A DNA stretch of 64,000 bases from Herbiconiux daphne. GTDB lineage: Bacteria; Actinomycetota; Actinomycetes; Actinomycetales; Microbacteriaceae. Where the stretch lies: NCBI RefSeq assembly GCF_024979295.1, contig NZ_JANLCJ010000004.1, positions 310,001 through 374,000 of the forward strand. Direction: 5' to 3'. Under the pieces are notes generated by a model that was given only the letters and a program-made list of their open reading frames with translations, was not told the DNA's origin and did not search any database. How positions within the stretch are numbered: position 1 is the first letter of the stretch; the number at the start of each line of letters is the position of its first letter. Positions 17,950-24,637 of this stretch are shown here, in pieces. Position numbers and translations under genes: made by a program.

Positions 17950-18933
17950 ATGTCGCAACGCCCCATCCCGACGAAGCCGTCGCCCGTGCCGAAACCCCTC
18001 TTCCGCGACCCCGTCTTCGACGGCGCCGCCGACCCGGTGCTCGTCTGGAACCGCCACGAGCAGGCCTGGTGGATGGTCTACACCGCCCGCCGCGCCTGGG
18101 GCCCCGAGCTGCCCGGCGTCGAATGGATGCACGGCACCGACCTCGGCGTCGCCTCGACCCCCGACGGCGGTCTCACCTGGCTCTACCGCGGCACGATCGC
18201 CGGGCTCGACCTCGGCTGGGGCCGCGACACCTACTGGGCGCCCGAGATCATCGACGACGGCTCGCGCTACCACATGTACGTCAGCGTGGTCACGGGCGTT
18301 CCCGACCGCTGGCCGGGCCACCCGCGCCGCATCCGCCACTACACCAGCGACGACCTCGTGCGCTGGGCGTTCGTGTCGACGCTCGACCTCTCGTCCGACC
18401 GGGTCATCGATGCGGCCGTCGCTCCCCTGCCCGGCGGTGGCCACCGCATGTGGTTCAAAGACGAGGCCGACGACAGCCACACCTGGGCCGCCGACAGCCC
18501 CGACCTCGCCACCTGGACCGTCGTCGGCCCGGTGCTCACGCACGCCCCGCACGAGGGCCCGAACGTCTTCCCGCTCGGGGGCTGGTGGTGGATGATCGTC
18601 GACGAATGGAACGGGCAGCGCGTCTTCCGCTCCCACGATCTGGCGGGGTGGACCGCGCAGGGCCTGATTCTCGATCAGCCGGGAAGGGGGCCGGATGATT
18701 CATCCGTGGGTCATCACGCCGACGTCGTGCCGACGTCGGACTCCATGGCCTCGATCTTCTACTTCACCCATCCCGGGCGCCAGACCGGTGGGCCGCTCGA
18801 CACGGTCGCCGAGCGGCGGTCGTCGATCCAGGTCGCGCGGGTGCGGGTCGTCGACGGCACCCTCGTCTGCAATCGCGACGAGGTGCTGACCGGCCCCGTG
18901 CTGCCGCCGGACGGCCCCGGCTCAGCGCCCTGA
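17950..18933 (+). CDS. GH43-like glycoside hydrolase (five-bladed propeller), cytoplasmic
   Basis: The 327-residue protein starts at the ATG at 17950; an in-frame TTG at 17935 would add five residues but lies inside the operator. No signal peptide is visible. DPVFDGAADPVLVWN (D28 a likely catalytic base), GRDTYWAPEIIDDG and VIDAAVAPLPGGGHRMWFKDEA are arranged as in GH43 and related arabinosidase/xylosidase families. A cytoplasmic location implies action on an imported oligosaccharide. Its stop overlaps the convergent HTTM gene end by 12 bases. The precise sugar cannot be read from the sequence. Confidence 0.8.
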   Translation: MSQRPIPTKPSPVPKPLFRDPVFDGAADPVLVWNRHEQAWWMVYTARRAWGPELPGVEWMHGTDLGVASTPDGGLTWLYRGTIAGLDLGWGRDTYWAPEIIDDGSRYHMYVSVVTGVPDRWPGHPRRIRHYTSDDLVRWAFVSTLDLSSDRVIDAAVAPLPGGGHRMWFKDEADDSHTWAADSPDLATWTVVGPVLTHAPHEGPNVFPLGGWWWMIVDEWNGQRVFRSHDLAGWTAQGLILDQPGRGPDDSSVGHHADVVPTSDSMASIFYFTHPGRQTGGPLDTVAERRSSIQVARVRVVDGTLVCNRDEVLTGPVLPPDGPGSAP

Positions 18934-20043
18934 GTCGGGCTGGGCGACCGCAGCCGTCGCCGCGACCCCGGCGGCAGCCCCGACCCCCGACGTCGTCGCC
19001 GCGGGCTTCGGCGCCGGCCGCCGGTCGGTGAACAGCGGCCGCACCGCCCCCACCAGCGCCTTCACGGCGCTGAGACCCCACGCCAGCATGCGCCGCCACG
19101 ACGAGTCGCGCACGAACAGCAGGTCGAGGGCGATCATCGCGAGCGAGAACGGCCAGAGCCCGAGAAACAGGCCGATGCCGAGGTGCATGCCGAGGATGAC
19201 GATGAGGGCCGCGATGCGGGTGGGCCGCCAGAGCACGAGCAGTGGGAACAGCAGCTGCACCCAGACGGAGAGGAACGTGGCCACGAAGACCCCGACGTCC
19301 CACTGCCACGCCAGGTCGCTCAGCGCCGGGAACGGCCGGAACACGTCGAGCACGAGCGAGTAGTAGAAGGCCGTGCCGTCGCGCCACTCGACGCCGCTCA
19401 GCTTGTAGATGGCCGAGTTCACGTAGACGAGCATGATCTGGTAGGCGCAGAGGACGACGGCCGCATTGCTCGCCGTGTTCTTCACGGTCTCGGCGATCAC
19501 ACCTCGCCAGAGCGGTCGCACCTGACGCGCGCCTCGCCGGCGCAGCCACGCATCCACCGACCAGTGCTGCGACAGATCGGCGACCACGAGGAACAGCAGC
19601 GTGATGCGCATGATCGTGTCGCCGCCGTTGGTGAGCACGGTGCTGTTCGTCGCCAGGCCCACCCAGAAGACGAGCAGCAGGGGCGTGACGAAGCGCGTCT
19701 GCCAGCCGATCAGGAACAGCAGGGCCAGGATGGCGAGAATCGCGTAGGAGAGGTCGAACAGAGCGGCGTCGTCTTTGGGGAACGCGATCTGGAACAGGCC
19801 GATCCAGCCGCGGCGCTTCGCCTCGGGCTCGACCCACTGCGAGGCGACGCCCCAGAGGTAGTGCCGGTCGGCGACGTTCGTGGCGAGGAACGCCAGGATG
19901 ATGCCGCCGTAGATGATGCGCAGGAACGAGAGGCTGAACGTGGCGTGCTTCGACCGGGTCAGCCAGCCGATCAGCAGCGCGGGCACCTGCCGAGGCTCAG
20001 GGAGTGCCGGCAGGAGGCGACGGGATGCGTTCGGCTGGTTCAT
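18922..20043 (-). CDS. HTTM-domain membrane protein (vitamin K-dependent carboxylase/SdpB-like)
   Basis: The 373-residue protein has about eight membrane segments. It shows SLSFLRIIYGGIILAF at the first, the ...LTNGGDTIMRITLLFLVVADLSQHW motif in the middle, and INSA-like YVNSAIYKLSGVEWRDGTAFYYSL, all typical of the HTTM family. It starts with an ATGA overlap at the end of the DUF5819 gene, so the two products are made together. HTTM proteins include gamma-glutamyl carboxylase and SdpB, a maturation protein for a toxin peptide in Bacillus. The C-terminal 40 residues are Ala/Thr-rich and poorly ordered. Confidence 0.83.
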   Translation of the reverse strand: MNQPNASRRLLPALPEPRQVPALLIGWLTRSKHATFSLSFLRIIYGGIILAFLATNVADRHYLWGVASQWVEPEAKRRGWIGLFQIAFPKDDAALFDLSYAILAILALLFLIGWQTRFVTPLLLVFWVGLATNSTVLTNGGDTIMRITLLFLVVADLSQHWSVDAWLRRRGARQVRPLWRGVIAETVKNTASNAAVVLCAYQIMLVYVNSAIYKLSGVEWRDGTAFYYSLVLDVFRPFPALSDLAWQWDVGVFVATFLSVWVQLLFPLLVLWRPTRIAALIVILGMHLGIGLFLGLWPFSLAMIALDLLFVRDSSWRRMLAWGLSAVKALVGAVRPLFTDRRPAPKPAATTSGVGAAAGVAATAAVAQPDSGR

Positions 20044-20801
20044 GAGGTCGGTCCGTATCGCTTGAGCATGTCGTCGTAGACGGCGAGCGTCTCGGGGTCG
20101 ACCACGTCGTCGACGTGGCGCCATCCGAAGGTCACCGTGTAGGGGTCGAACTGCTGTTGTTCGTCGAAGCGATGGTCGAAGTCGTTCGGCCTGGTGCGCA
20201 CGAGCTTCCAGCGCACCCGTTCGATCGGTTTGCCGAAGTAGGCGGTGGCGAAGTCGGTGGCGTACTCCTTGAGCATGTAGTCGTAGCGCAGAAAGCGCAC
20301 GATGTCGCCCTGTGCGGCGGCATCCGTTCCGTCGACCGCTTCGAGCTGCTCGATCAGGGGCGCCGGCGGTTTGGCGCGGTAGCCGCCCTCGCCGTCGCGC
20401 TCGATGAAGGTGTCGCGCACCACCTCGCGCTGCTGTTCGTTGAGCGCGACGTAGCGGCCGTAGTAGGCGAGCATGGCGTTCCACGACGACTTCTGGATGC
20501 GCGAGGGCATCGCGTGGCCGGGCACCGACTGCTGTTCGATGCCGGTGACGCTCACCCAGTCGCTCTTGACCAGTTCGCCGCCGTCGCCGCGCCACTGGGC
20601 CTCGATGACGAATTCGGTGTTCGTCTTCATGATGCTCGGCGCGAACACGTTCCACTTCTGCGAGAAGTAGGGAGCGGTCGCCGTGACCACCGAGCTTCGC
20701 AGCGGACTCGACGGCAGCACGGTCACGAGCGTCACGAAGATGTAGACGGCCACGACCGCGACGGCGACGGATGCCGCGACCTTCTGTGTGCGAGTAGTCA
20801 T
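20040..20801 (-). CDS. DUF5819 family membrane-anchored protein
   Basis: The start is the ATG at 20801, six bases after GAGGGGA; the longer open frame upstream crosses a hairpin and is rejected. The 253-residue protein has one N-terminal membrane helix (about residues 9-30), then an exported domain beginning TAPYFSQKWNVFAPSIMKTNTEF, with the conserved W-N-V-F-A-P. It is immediately followed, with overlapping start, by an HTTM gene, a pairing I know from other actinobacteria. No enzyme activity is known. Confidence 0.8.
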   Translation of the reverse strand: MTTRTQKVAASVAVAVVAVYIFVTLVTVLPSSPLRSSVVTATAPYFSQKWNVFAPSIMKTNTEFVIEAQWRGDGGELVKSDWVSVTGIEQQSVPGHAMPSRIQKSSWNAMLAYYGRYVALNEQQREVVRDTFIERDGEGGYRAKPPAPLIEQLEAVDGTDAAAQGDIVRFLRYDYMLKEYATDFATAYFGKPIERVRWKLVRTRPNDFDHRFDEQQQFDPYTVTFGWRHVDDVVDPETLAVYDDMLKRYGPTS

Positions 20802-20820
20802 TGTCTTCCCCTCAGAAACC

Positions 20821-20856
20821 TCAGACGCAGTGGACGGTTGCATCCACTGCGTCTGA
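20821..20856 (-). terminator. Strong hairpin after the LANTG surface-protein gene
   Basis: TCAGACGCAGTGGA (20821-20834) pairs perfectly over 14 bp with TCCACTGCGTCTGA (20843-20856) around an 8-base loop. It lies 47 bases after the end of the surface-protein gene and 20 bases before the DUF5819 start. The following tract has few U residues, so it fits an actinobacterial U-poor terminator. Confidence 0.75.
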
Positions 20857-20902
20857 GATCGGCGGGTGGGTCACGTGGCGTCGCGTGGCCCACCCGGGTC
20901 GG

Positions 20903-23900
20903 TCATCGTAGGCGCATTCTCCGCACGCCCATCACTGCTCCGCCGGCGAGTAGCAGCAGCAGGGCGAACCCTCCGATGAGTGGGCCGTCGAGCCCGGTGT
21001 TCGCGAGGCCCCCGGCCGGGGTGGCCGGGCCGCTGCCCGCCGTGGCCGGAGCTGCGGTGACGGTGAACGAGGCGTTGTTCCTCTCTGAGGGAACCGGGCC
21101 GGTCTGGCTGCCGGTCAGGGACACCACGTGGGTTCCGAGGGGGAACTGGGCCCCGATCGGAAGGGTGAAGGTCACGTTGCCTGCGGCATCGGCGACCTGC
21201 GGGGTGAAGGTGAAGCCGTCGAGCGTCGCGGTGACGGTCTCGCCGGGGGCGAAGCCGGTGCCGTAGATCTCTTGCACCACCCCCATACCCCGCACGATGC
21301 TCGAGTACTTGACCGACGACTCGGGCGCGTAGTCGGCGTCGGTGTCGCCGTCGGCGTCCGTCGCGGCGTCGGTGTCGGTCGCGGCGTCGGCGTCGGTCGC
21401 GGCATCGGCGTCGGCGTCCGTCGCGGCATCGGCGTCCGTCGCGGCATCGGCGTCAGTCGCGGCATCCGCGTCAGTCGCGGCATCCGCGTCAGTTGCGGCA
21501 TCCGCGTCCACGTCGGCTGCAGCATCTGCGTCCGTTGCGGCGTCGGCGTCAGTCGCAGCATCAGCATCAGTCGCGGCGTCAGCATCAGCGTCGGTCGCGG
21601 CATCAGCGTCGGTCGCGGCATCCGCGTCCGCATCGGCCGCAGCATCAGCATCCACGTCTGCGGCAGCATCGGCGTCCACATCAGCGGCCGCATCGACGTC
21701 GGCAGCCGCATCCACATCGGCTGCAGCGTCTGCGTCGGCATCACTGTCAGCGGCAGCATCCACATCAGCCGCCGCGTCTACGTCAGCGGCCGCATCAACA
21801 TCCGCGTCGGCTGCAGCGTCAACATCCGCATCGGCATCCACATCTGCCGCTGCATCAACGTCAGCGTCCGCGTCGGCCGCAGCGTCCACGTCCGCATCGA
21901 GGTCTGCCGCTGCGTCTACGTCCGCAGCTGCATCCACATCGGCTGCAGCATCAACATCCGCGTCAGCATCGACGTCCGCGGCCGCATCAACATCAGCGTC
22001 AGCGTCAACGTCGGCTGCCGCATCAACGTCCGCAGCCGCATCAACATCCGCGTCAGCGTCCACATCGGCCGCTGCATCCACATCAGCGTCAGCGTCCACA
22101 TCGGCCGCTGCATCCACATCAGCGTCAGCGTCCACATCGGCCGCAGCATCCACGTCGGCTGCAGCATCAACATCCGCGTCCACATCAGCCGCCGCATCCA
22201 CGTCCGCCGCAGCATCCACATCCGCGTCGGCATCCGCATCCGCGTCGGCGTCCACATCCGCAGCCGCGTCCACATCGGCCGCCGCATCGACATCAGCAGC
22301 GGCATCCACGTCTGCATCCGCATCAACGTCGGCTGCAGCATCCACGTCTGCCGCGGCATCCACGTCAGCATCCGCGTCCGCGTCCACATCGGCCGCTGCG
22401 TCTACGTCAGCCGCAGCATCCACGTCCACATCAGCGTCGGCATCCACGTCCACATCAGCGTCGGCATCCACGTCCACGTCCAAGTCAGCCGCCGCGTCCA
22501 CGTCGGCTGCGGCATCCACATCGGCCGCAGCATCGGCGTCGGCCGCTGCATCCACATCCGCATCTACATCGACGTCAGCATCCACGTCGACATCAGCGGC
22601 CGCGTCGGCGTCGGCCGCGGCATCGGCAGCGGCGTCCACATCCGCATCCGCATCAACGTCGACGTCCGCATCCACGTCCGCCGCAGCATCGGCGTCAGCC
22701 GCCGCATCCACATCCGCATCCACGTCCACATCAGCGGCCGCATCGGCGTCGGCCGCAGCATCGGCGTCAGCCGCCGCATCCACATCCGCATCCGCATCCG
22801 CATCAACGTCGACGTCCACGTCCACATCTACGTCGGCCGCAGCATCGGCGTCGGCCGCAGCATCGGCGTCGGCCGCCACGTCGGCGTCGGCCGCGGCATC
22901 CGTGTCGGCGTCGGCGTCGGCGGCCTCGACCTGCACGGTGAAGGTGACGGTGTCGTCGCTCTCGGCCTCACCGGCGGTCTGCACGGCGGTGGCCGTGTAG
23001 GTGTCGGCCGGCAGGTCGAGGAACGTCACCTCCCACGTACCGTCTTCGTTGACCGTGGTCGGCTGATCCGGCTGACCGGGAATCGACACGACGATGTCGG
23101 CGAGAGGCTCACCCTCTCCCGACACGATGACCGTGGCGGTCTCGGTGGCCTGGCCCGCCGGAATCACCGCGCCCTCGGTGGGGCCTGTGATCAGCACGTC
23201 GGTGATGTCGATCGCGTTCGGCCCGACCGTCGCATTCGCGATCTCGAGGGTGACCGCGTCGAGGCCCGGCAGAACGGTGACCACGAGCGCGGTCTCCGAG
23301 AACACCCCGGCGTTCGTCTCCTGGTGGTTGACCTCGAGCGACAGCGCGAGCGACAGGATGTCGGTGATCGCCGGCACGAGCAGTTCGTTCACCGGAATCA
23401 ACGCCGTCGTCGCGACGGAGGTGACCGAGGTGATCAGGTCGTCCAGTGGGGCGGTCAGAGCGTCGACGATCAGGTCGAGCCCCAGCGTGAGACCGACGCC
23501 CGCGAGCGAGATGCCCGACGTGTCACCGCTCAGCAGTGCGCCGACGCTCGTGTCGAGCGTGATCACGGGCCCGACGACCAGCACGGTCACACCACCGGTG
23601 ATGGTGATGCCGTTGATCGCCTCCGTGAGGTCTTCGACCACGTCGTCGAGCACGCCGTCGATGAGATTGAAGACGGAGTCCTGAATCTGCTCGATCACCG
23701 CGGGCGTGAGGATCTGCGTGTTCGGGTCCAGCCCGTTCAGCGGCTGGATCGCATCCAGATCGACCGACACCACACCGGTCGACAGATCGACCGATACCCC
23801 GGGGTAGGCCGGGTCGGTGACCGGTCCGTCGAAAAGCCCGGCGATCGCATCGGTGAGCGTGACCGAGCTCACATCGACGTCGACCGTCGCCAGGGCGCCC

Positions 23901-24637
23901 AGGTCGAGCAGCCCGAGCGCCGCGTCGAGGCTGACACTCAGCTCATCGACACTGGACTGCAGCGCGGTGACCAGGTCACCCACCTCGCCGGCCAGACCGG
24001 CGACCGTGGGGCTGGTGAAGAGCAGGTCGGCTCCCGCGATCTCATAGCTGCCCTCTGCCGCAGCCGGCGCCGCCTGACTCGCGCGGGCGCTCGTGACACC
24101 CACCTGGAGGCTGAGGTCGGCCAGCTCGGCCGTGATGTCGGCGTCGAGCCCGAGCGCCGCGACCACATCGCTCAACTCCAGCGACAGCGGCCCCGGCGCC
24201 ACGCCGGGTGCGGGGGTCACGCCGGTGCCGATCAGGCCGCCTTCGCTGACGAGCCCGGATGCCCCGACCGACGACCCATCGGTCTGCGCACTCGCATACT
24301 GGCTGACCACGCCGGCGTCGACGAGGCTCAGCGGAAGCTGCACGCCCCCGCCCGCCTCGAGCGTCAGGATGTCGAGCACCGAGAGGTCGAGATTATTCGC
24401 GTTCGTCTCGGGCGTCACGCCGTCGCTCGTCGCCGACTCGCCCGCGAGCTCGGCGATCACGTCGGTGTTGAGCCCCAGGATCGAGCCCCCGAGATAGGTG
24501 CCCGTCGCATTCGACACATCCCCCGGATCGGCGTGCGCGGCCGTGACCGATCCGAAGGCCAGCAGCGCTGTCGCCCCGACGAGCGCGAGCGACCTCGCTC
24601 CCCAGCCCATGCGCGAATGACGGCGGTTCTGTGTCAT
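20903..24637 (-). CDS. Sortase-anchored surface protein with long Asp-Ala repeat stalk (LANTG)
   Basis: The 1,244-residue protein has a signal peptide (about residues 1-36, ending AHA-DPG). A head domain to about residue 470 begins DVSNATGTYLGGSILGLNTDVIAEL and looks like the choice-of-anchor G family. An Ig-like domain follows (about 480-568, GTWEVTFLDLPADTYTATAV). Residues about 569-1101 consist almost only of Asp, Ala, Val and Thr in DAAADV, DADADV and DAATDA hexads. A second Ig-like fold contains GTGFAPGETVTATLDGF. It ends with LANTG, a hydrophobic helix and RRMRLR. LAxTG is the motif of class E sortases; no sortase gene is in the window. The stalk is extremely acidic and may play the spacing role of Ser-Asp repeats in staphylococcal adhesins. 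Confidence 0.88.
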   Translation of the reverse strand: MTQNRRHSRMGWGARSLALVGATALLAFGSVTAAHADPGDVSNATGTYLGGSILGLNTDVIAELAGESATSDGVTPETNANNLDLSVLDILTLEAGGGVQLPLSLVDAGVVSQYASAQTDGSSVGASGLVSEGGLIGTGVTPAPGVAPGPLSLELSDVVAALGLDADITAELADLSLQVGVTSARASQAAPAAAEGSYEIAGADLLFTSPTVAGLAGEVGDLVTALQSSVDELSVSLDAALGLLDLGALATVDVDVSSVTLTDAIAGLFDGPVTDPAYPGVSVDLSTGVVSVDLDAIQPLNGLDPNTQILTPAVIEQIQDSVFNLIDGVLDDVVEDLTEAINGITITGGVTVLVVGPVITLDTSVGALLSGDTSGISLAGVGLTLGLDLIVDALTAPLDDLITSVTSVATTALIPVNELLVPAITDILSLALSLEVNHQETNAGVFSETALVVTVLPGLDAVTLEIANATVGPNAIDITDVLITGPTEGAVIPAGQATETATVIVSGEGEPLADIVVSIPGQPDQPTTVNEDGTWEVTFLDLPADTYTATAVQTAGEAESDDTVTFTVQVEAADADADTDAAADADVAADADAAADADAAADVDVDVDVDVDADADADVDAAADADAAADADAAADVDVDADVDAAADADAAADVDADVDVDADADVDAAADAAADADAAADVDVDADVDVDADVDAAADADAAADVDAAADVDAAADLDVDVDADADVDVDADADVDVDAAADVDAAADVDADADADVDAAADVDAAADVDADADVDAAADVDAAADVDAAADVDADADADADADVDAAADVDAAADVDADVDAAADVDAAADVDADADVDAAADVDADADVDAAADVDADADVDAAADVDAAADVDADADVDAAADVDADADVDAAADVDAAADVDAAADLDADVDAAADADADVDAAADVDADADVDAAADADVDAAADVDAAADVDAAADSDADADAAADVDAAADVDAAADVDADAAADVDADAAADADADAATDADAATDADADAATDADAATDADAATDADAAADVDADAATDADAATDADAATDADAATDADAATDADADAATDADAATDTDAATDADGDTDADYAPESSVKYSSIVRGMGVVQEIYGTGFAPGETVTATLDGFTFTPQVADAAGNVTFTLPIGAQFPLGTHVVSLTGSQTGPVPSERNNASFTVTAAPATAGSGPATPAGGLANTGLDGPLIGGFALLLLLAGGAVMGVRRMRLR
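21330..22930 (-). repeat. 1.6-kb degenerate hexanucleotide/18-mer repeat encoding the Asp-Ala stalk
   Basis: The tract is built from GCNGCATCC-, GCGTCGGCN- and ACATCAGCG-like words (plus-strand reading). Because TAA, TAG and TGA are scarce in such words, several frames are open through it. Third-position variation between units (GCG, GCA, GCT, GCC) shows it is an old repeat, not a recent perfect expansion. Unit type changes along the gene: alternating DV near residues 600-800, AAADVD in the middle, AATDAD at the end. Confidence 0.85.

Follow-up and report, generated by a model that had tools for sequence, protein, structure and literature searches.

The window analysed here, a stretch of 64,000 nucleotides of the Herbiconiux daphne genome, raises the question why the gene of a surface protein with a long Asp-Ala-Val stalk is followed by genes encoding a DUF5819 protein and a membrane protein of the HTTM type, and what the latter two products might do to the former. 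We consider the DUF5819-HTTM pair, positioned directly downstream, to be the most informative feature of the locus. The reading that we favor, whose chance as a whole we place slightly below even, is that a split quinone-dependent pair modifies the exported stalk, perhaps by carboxylating its aspartates. The features on which the argument is built are the following:

18922..20043 (-), HTTM gene (GGCX/SdpB-type membrane protein); PF05090, 3.7e-12 on 18925-19992
20040..20801 (-), DUF5819 gene; PF19136, 5.1e-23; model pLDDT 87
20817..20860 (-), second hairpin; perfect 14-base inverted repeat 20821-20834 / 20843-20856
20864..20895 (-), first hairpin; RNA fold of 20795-20905 (-)
20903..24637 (-), stalk surface-protein gene, 1244 aa; open frame and translation
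20921..20992 (-), membrane stretch (aa 1216-1239), then basic tail; hydropathy
20993..21007 (-), LANTG sorting motif (aa 1211-1215); read from the sequence
21161..21268 (-), weak Ig-like match, C-terminal to the stalk (aa 1124-1159); NCBIfam NF058592 (GxPGS), E 0.031, below cut-off
21329..22921 (-), Asp-Ala-Val stalk (aa 573-1103); composition and register
22934..23092 (-), weak Ig-like domain, N-terminal to the stalk (aa 516-568); Pfam Big_11 PF18200, E 0.0094, below cut-off
23711..24520 (-), choice-of-anchor G head (aa 40-309); NCBIfam NF033766, 4.7e-60
24530..24637 (-), signal peptide (aa 1-36); hydrophobic aa 16-35, cleavage placed by eye after AHA, end therefore putative

The stalk protein

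The initial annotation had described a surface protein that carries a sortase motif and an Asp-Ala stalk, the latter being placed at 21330-22930, about 530 residues long, made of nearly only Asp, Ala, Val and Thr, and with its unit types arranged in blocks. All of this was borne out. We measured 531 residues at 21329-22921, comprising 239 Ala, 205 Asp, 66 Val, 16 Thr, two Leu and one Ser, Gly and Tyr each; when split after DV or DT, the stalk yields 24 DAAADV and ten DADADV units. Threonine is clustered, with 15 of the 16 residues in the last ~100 positions. The head passes the choice-of-anchor G model with 204 bits (cut-off 45) and covers its positions 1-283 of 283; neither this head nor the downstream pair was included in that first description.

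Also absent from it was the strict two-residue register of the stalk, which continues with 0 breaks: even positions hold the 205 Asp and 60 Ala, while odd positions are occupied mostly by Ala, Val and Thr and never by Asp. The unit V-D-A-A-A-D fits a hexapeptide rule, and for this reason a solenoid was considered. A solenoid with fixed six-residue turns was set aside, as Val recurs at a spacing of six in just 34/65 cases and the two-residue register is unbroken. An antisense Ser-Ala frame over the stalk was likewise discarded as a by-product of the repeat.

At the DNA level, GC3 amounts to 0.61 in the stalk, 0.89 in the head and 0.84 in the neighboring genes, and the Asp codons of the stalk are split evenly (GAC:GAT 50:50). 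This mixed codon use was perhaps selected against recombination between the repeats. The longest exact direct repeat measures 59 bp, and of the 1534 distinct 50-mers 10 occur more than once, whereas synonymous-codon shuffles (n=200) gave a longest repeat of 20-38 bp. Some recent local duplication has thus taken place within a repeat that is mostly diverse in DNA. A collapsed-repeat assembly artefact is unlikely, since exact repeats do not exceed 59 bp and, with so few recurring 50-mers, reads of usual length would cross the stalk. DAAADV hexads are also found in separate assemblies of Plantibacter (25 in L083, 40 in L085 and 21 in L086).

As for the C-terminal end, LAxTG is the motif preferred by class E sortases, to which the LANTG sequence had been ascribed, and at sequence level this assignment holds: the LAxTG motif, the membrane stretch and the basic tail are all present, and the genome encodes one class E sortase (NF033747, 234 bits, cut-off 160). 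Class F-like sortases number two in this genome, and one, as the fragment that was scanned, lies below its cut-off. The stalk protein is thus a candidate class E sortase substrate, and its anchoring to the wall is predicted as probable. Searching plasmids with the stalk protein returned no match at 1e-5.

Among known surface proteins, the Ser-Asp adhesins of staphylococci (SdrC/D, ClfA/B) resemble it in having a long acidic stalk in dipeptide register that leads from a head to a sortase motif. They differ in that the stalk is here made of Asp-Ala/Val with one Ser in 531 residues, and in the head; the SdrC, SdrD, ClfA and ClfB models score at most 174 bits vs cut-offs of 999-2500, with the best stretches mostly in the repeat. 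Ser-Asp adhesins have glycosyltransferases; here an HTTM protein is encoded instead.

The downstream pair and human GGCX

The DUF5819 gene likely starts from the ATG at 20801, which is preceded by GGGGAAG, the start of the longer frame (20843) being located within a hairpin. Its product contains one hydrophobic stretch, a membrane helix, and a further domain presumed to lie outside. The HTTM start codon overlaps the DUF5819 stop (ATGA), and the HTTM protein scores 46.8 bits with PF05090 (cut-off 27.7). No solved-structure relative of DUF5819 was found by sequence, Foldseek or VIA (best Z 3.0), nor did any NCBIfam model match consistently across 55 members; the SdpA model was absent from their NCBIfam matches. 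The source genome encodes one VKOR, a point in favor of the modification proposed below.

The gap between the stalk gene and duf5819 is occupied by the two hairpins, both contained in the stretch 20795-20905 (-), for which the RNA fold as a whole has a z of -6.96. A hairpin with a stem of at least 10 follows the stalk gene on its 3' side in 53/68 related loci, the hairpin sequences being different, whereas in the control of five single-base shuffles per locus the longest stem averaged 6.3. We infer that the hairpins could be a way to obtain much stalk protein and little enzyme.

When a profile of 54 HTTM proteins was searched against the PDB, sequences of human GGCX, the vitamin K-dependent gamma-carboxylase of blood clotting, were the only ones to match (best 9.4e-9). 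The structural model of the HTTM protein (pLDDT 91, pTM 0.85) points to the same relative: its 16 best Foldseek rows are GGCX, 15 of them with E <=0.001, and VIA aligned it with GGCX at Z 21.1 and 3.5 A over 273 residues, the next unrelated chain reaching 6.5. The model covers only the transmembrane domain of GGCX, as the chain stops soon after the membrane helices and has no luminal propeptide-binding domain of its own.

In the study of GGCX in PMC12589487, K218 is presented as the base which deprotonates the hydroquinone, menaquinone-4 as the bound quinone, W223 and F299, together with H160, F286, F294 and others, as the lining of the quinone pocket, and N159, H160 and Y395 as the residues holding the substrate Glu. 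We mapped GGCX residues onto the HTTM proteins through sequence alignments and found that the equivalents of K218, W223, G226, Y211, H287, F299 and S300 are identical in 54/54. The quinone-pocket residues H160, F286 and F294 are not kept. Nor is the Glu pocket, since in the HMMER alignment the N159 and H160 columns hold Gln/Gly/Ala and Gly/Ser/Thr, respectively, with His in 1/54 at H160; beside these columns are an Asp in 51/54 and an Arg in 54/54. Retention of the Lys, Trp and Phe without N159/H160 indicates that the quinone site has kept its core and that the substrate side is different, so that the chemistry may differ from that of GGCX.

Gene neighborhood of the DUF5819-HTTM pair

By scanning named genomes with the HTTM alignment we obtained 513 stretches encoding a relative, the best 80 of which were examined; this set is biased to close relatives, includes several loci from one genome and shares some genomes with the 99-genome set described below. 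The genera covered are Plantibacter, Mycetocola, Microbacterium, Clavibacter, Agromyces, Leucobacter, Isoptericola, Oerskovia, Brevibacterium, Glutamicibacter, Aeromicrobium, Phytoactinopolyspora, Microlunatus and others. DUF5819 adjoins HTTM in 79 of the 80 loci, the exception (L102) being a 3.4-kb contig, and in none of the 80 are the two combined in a single frame.

An Asp-rich low-complexity stalk gene is located next to the pair in 66/80 loci, with an anchor seen in 63. By script, 59 loci encode a low-complexity acidic protein with an anchor immediately upstream of the pair, and seven were added by eye: L084, L116, L151 and L120 are anchored, the L120 stalk gene preceding the second of two pairs and lying between them, and a stalk with no anchor confirmed in frame is present in L113, L114 and L115. 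The remaining 14 comprise four loci with no upstream sequence (L089, L091, L102, L140), three with a short anchored end only (L131, L133, L155) and seven without a stalk gene beside the pair (L119, L129, L130, L132, L134, L157, L158). The idea that an Asp-Ala stalk of such size is unique therefore found no support, given related Asp-rich stalks in 66/80 loci and the DAAADV units of Plantibacter. Across 1.38 Mb the script reported seven further acidic anchored frames, which include L084 and L120, two positioned before second pairs (L121, L122), a false one (the HTTM frame in L107) and, at 16-20 kb, two that are real (L085, L086). In 26 loci the contig or locus ends less than 2.2 kb upstream of the pair, and in 6 it does so on the downstream side, as is expected if stalk repeats break assemblies.

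Some arrangements vary. In Phytoactinopolyspora (L120, L121, L122) the cassettes stand in tandem, with an anchored stalk gene between two DUF5819-HTTM pairs, and in L111 and L125 one stalk gene is followed by two pairs in a row. In two Leucobacter loci (L132, L134) the gene preceding the pair ends in apparent cell-wall-binding repeats, not in a stalk.

The same association was seen from the side of the head. NF033766 was found in 28/99 related genomes, the source genome included, and 39 head genes in 38 loci were examined with their flanks. What comes after the head is an Ig array, little or nothing, or an acidic low-complexity stalk; these stalks are very unlike in sequence, among them (DA)n, DAAGTDAT, DTAADT, VEVDG, TEVDG and mixed A/D/S/N types. 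The window's head is a clear member of the family, yet 29 of the 39 members examined have no acidic stalk and no adjacent pair: DUF5819-HTTM adjoins 8/10 acidic-stalk head genes vs 0/29 of those without such a stalk (p 7e-7), and per genome DUF5819 is present in 9/9 with acidic-stalk heads vs 3/19 with other heads (p 3e-5), both values serving as a guide only, as related sequences are not independent. Of the 13 places in the 99 genomes where DUF5819 exceeds its cut-off, 11 lie directly behind a stalk gene, and the sorting motif is seen in ten of these 11 genes, the end of the G085 gene being masked. The other two pairs (G083:C16 and G038:C1) have no stalk gene ahead; G083 encodes two stalk proteins elsewhere. 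Unpaired HTTM genes number four in the 99 genomes, one of them below cut-off; near the two that were examined no anchored stalk was found, and their HTTM is too distant for the profile made here.

We also searched for the stalk pattern without regard to the pair. Runs in which Asp alternates with Ala or Thr are common at the DNA level: sequence that would encode D[AT]D[AT]D[AT]D[AT]D is present in at least 42/99 genomes. Among 20 places outside known stalk genes, taken from the pattern matches listed, none lies in a sortase-anchored frame by script and none has the pair by profile; 19 are short runs. The last (L187:3358-4608, genome G093) encodes a DADADADADD run of ~75 residues with neither anchor nor DUF5819-HTTM pair, so that an acidic repeat can occur in the absence of the pair.

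When 396 genomes were drawn evenly from the phylum, DUF5819 was detected in 20 at E <=0.001, in 17 of them over cut-off. Four of the 18 phylum loci examined (L175-L178) carry an anchored stalk gene beside the pair. In two (L172, L173) the upstream protein has a low-complexity tail with no sortase motif, and in the other 12/18 neither a stalk nor a low-complexity upstream protein was recognised. All 14 loci without an anchored stalk come from one genus (g78) with genomes of 6-10 Mb, in which the pair must serve a different or distant substrate. Judged by gene order, pair and stalk are strongly linked in Micrococcales and in several further groups, but this is no rule for every DUF5819-HTTM pair. 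The two tails (L172:8946-10517, L173:9241-10623) are built of GKPGDGGHGE or DHGQDDHGN.

What the pair may do to the stalk

Functional linkage of pair and stalk is, in our judgment, highly probable. That the stalk is plain and unmodified, with the pair an unrelated operon neighbor, is scarcely credible: Ser-Asp stalks elsewhere are not known to need such enzymes, but the linkage spans many genera despite very unlike stalk sequences. Going one step further, we think it likely that the pair covalently modifies the stalk. The stalk gene, DUF5819 and HTTM make up a three-gene cassette. The stalk protein would be exported and a sortase, probably of class E, would attach it to the wall, its Asp-rich stalk acting as a charged spacer that may keep the choice-of-anchor G head off the cell. 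DUF5819 and HTTM would form a membrane enzyme that modifies the stalk on the outer side of the membrane, while it is being exported or afterwards. HTTM Lys197, equivalent to GGCX Lys218, would carry out its chemistry with reduced menaquinone and oxygen, and DUF5819 might, as a guess, stand in for the luminal substrate-binding part that is present in GGCX and missing in HTTM.

GGCX with its Glu-rich substrates would be a close parallel, sharing the transmembrane fold (Z 21), the Lys218/Trp223/Phe299/His287 equivalents and, as proposed here, a site of action beyond the membrane, where an acidic segment of an exported protein is modified. Unlike GGCX, HTTM has neither a luminal domain in the same chain nor the N159/H160 Glu pocket, and is accompanied by a separate DUF5819 protein; its partner is Asp-rich and mostly not Glu-rich, and HTTM itself is known here from sequence and model.

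The choice of residue is suggested by the composition of 69 stalk cores. Asp is the sole counted residue that never falls below 2% (minimum 5%, median 26%), with Glu below this level in 37 stalks, Ser in 28, Ala in 5 and Thr in 5; the filters by which stalks were recognised demanded 8-12% Asp plus Glu, so that acidity is partly built into these figures and the predominance of Asp over Glu is not. The lowest Asp contents belong to short cut pieces (L155, 40 residues) and to Ala/Ser/Thr-rich stalks, many of them from Microbacterium (8-10%). Asp-Asp neighbors are rare (median lag-1 ratio 0.0), apart from L161 (17) and L153 (6), and some stalks are also Lys-rich (L110). Of the residues counted, Asp alone is found in all stalks; it would therefore be the likely target, and the likely product would be beta-carboxy-aspartate, with two charges per residue and, potentially, tight calcium binding. 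For the stalk as such, the initial annotation had proposed calcium binding, a hydrated brush or salt-dependent extension as possible properties. Glycosylation of Ser/Thr is not favored as a common purpose, as S+T remains below 5% in 8/69 stalks.

The specific form of the proposal, a menaquinone-dependent carboxylation of Asp in wall-anchored stalks by a two-subunit HTTM plus DUF5819 enzyme, occurring in many actinobacteria, we advance tentatively. So too its corollary, which is doubtful to the same degree, that the fast-changing low-complexity stalks are substrates that become dense calcium-binding rods. Set against the whole reading are the pairs without a stalk (seven of the 80 named loci, G083:C16, G038:C1 and 12/18 phylum loci), the fact that most uncut partners (36/47) have the same type of head, and HTTM proteins such as SdpB and linaridin crdG, which serve peptides not known to be Asp-rich.

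A first alternative is that the pair assists in exporting, folding or anchoring long charged stalks, as an SdpAB-like accessory that makes no covalent change. The HTTM protein matches the SdpB model TIGR04033 at 8.6e-16, below cut-off (58.4 bits vs 178.4, which sets it apart from that family), and a secreted partner beside a one-helix protein and an HTTM protein resembles sdpABC. In the SdpA-SdpB-SdpC system of Bacillus subtilis an HTTM protein likewise stands beside a small protein and a secreted partner; that partner is a toxin, and in its place the cassette has a stalk protein predicted to be anchored to the wall. Yet the catalytic Lys of GGCX and two residues of its quinone pocket are invariant in 54/54 HTTM proteins, which would be superfluous for a pure helper, and we regard this alternative as unlikely.

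A second possibility is that the pair does modify the stalk, but through a different reaction of a strong base or quinone oxidant, such as hydroxylation, dehydrogenation or epimerisation, and not by carboxylation. It would agree with the lack of conservation of N159/H160, and also with linaridin crdG, described in PMC9927463 as an HTTM protein in a peptide pathway whose mechanism is unclear. Opposed to it is the chemistry characterised on this fold in the GGCX study, namely carboxylation coupled to quinone epoxidation (PMC12589487), and we give such a reaction a low probability.

Finally, the pair could serve the choice-of-anchor G head, with the stalk merely its usual companion. A profile built here finds a head of this type in 36/47 uncut partner proteins; the remaining 11 include four interrupted by masked runs, and some look head-like by eye. 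However, the pair adjoins 0/29 choice-of-anchor G genes without an acidic stalk, and anchored stalks without such a head occur beside it: L110 consists of a signal peptide, stalk and anchor, and L075 has a different head on its anchored stalk. In L113 and L115 the repeats directly follow the signal peptide, although no anchor was seen in these frames. We consider service to the head improbable.

No description of the cassette appeared in the titles and abstract beginnings among the matches listed, which come from openly available papers. Full-text searches found no paper on choice-of-anchor G or DUF5819, on SdpB with vitamin K, or on beta-carboxyaspartic acid, and that for HTTM with gamma-carboxylase and bacteria returned just a GGCX review.

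Whichever chemistry applies, DUF5819 and a GGCX-like branch of HTTM, both so far without an assigned role, are tied here to a definite class of surface proteins. If the favored modification by the pair is real and the enzyme active, a vitamin K-type protein modification would be at work in bacteria and a role found for the bacterial relatives of GGCX, the small split enzymes would be of use in studying the reaction, and it would be explained why stalk sequences vary widely yet keep Asp. Should Asp carboxylation be true, bacteria would have an equivalent of the vitamin K chemistry that serves blood clotting, Asp taking the place of Glu.

Stalk sequences differ widely. In two loci of the same genus as the window (L110, L112) the pair follows a headless SDSTDSK stalk, so that stalk type varies within the genus, and an Isoptericola stalk (L124:5901-9116) consists of near-perfect VEVDG pentads, almost without Ser, Thr and Ala.
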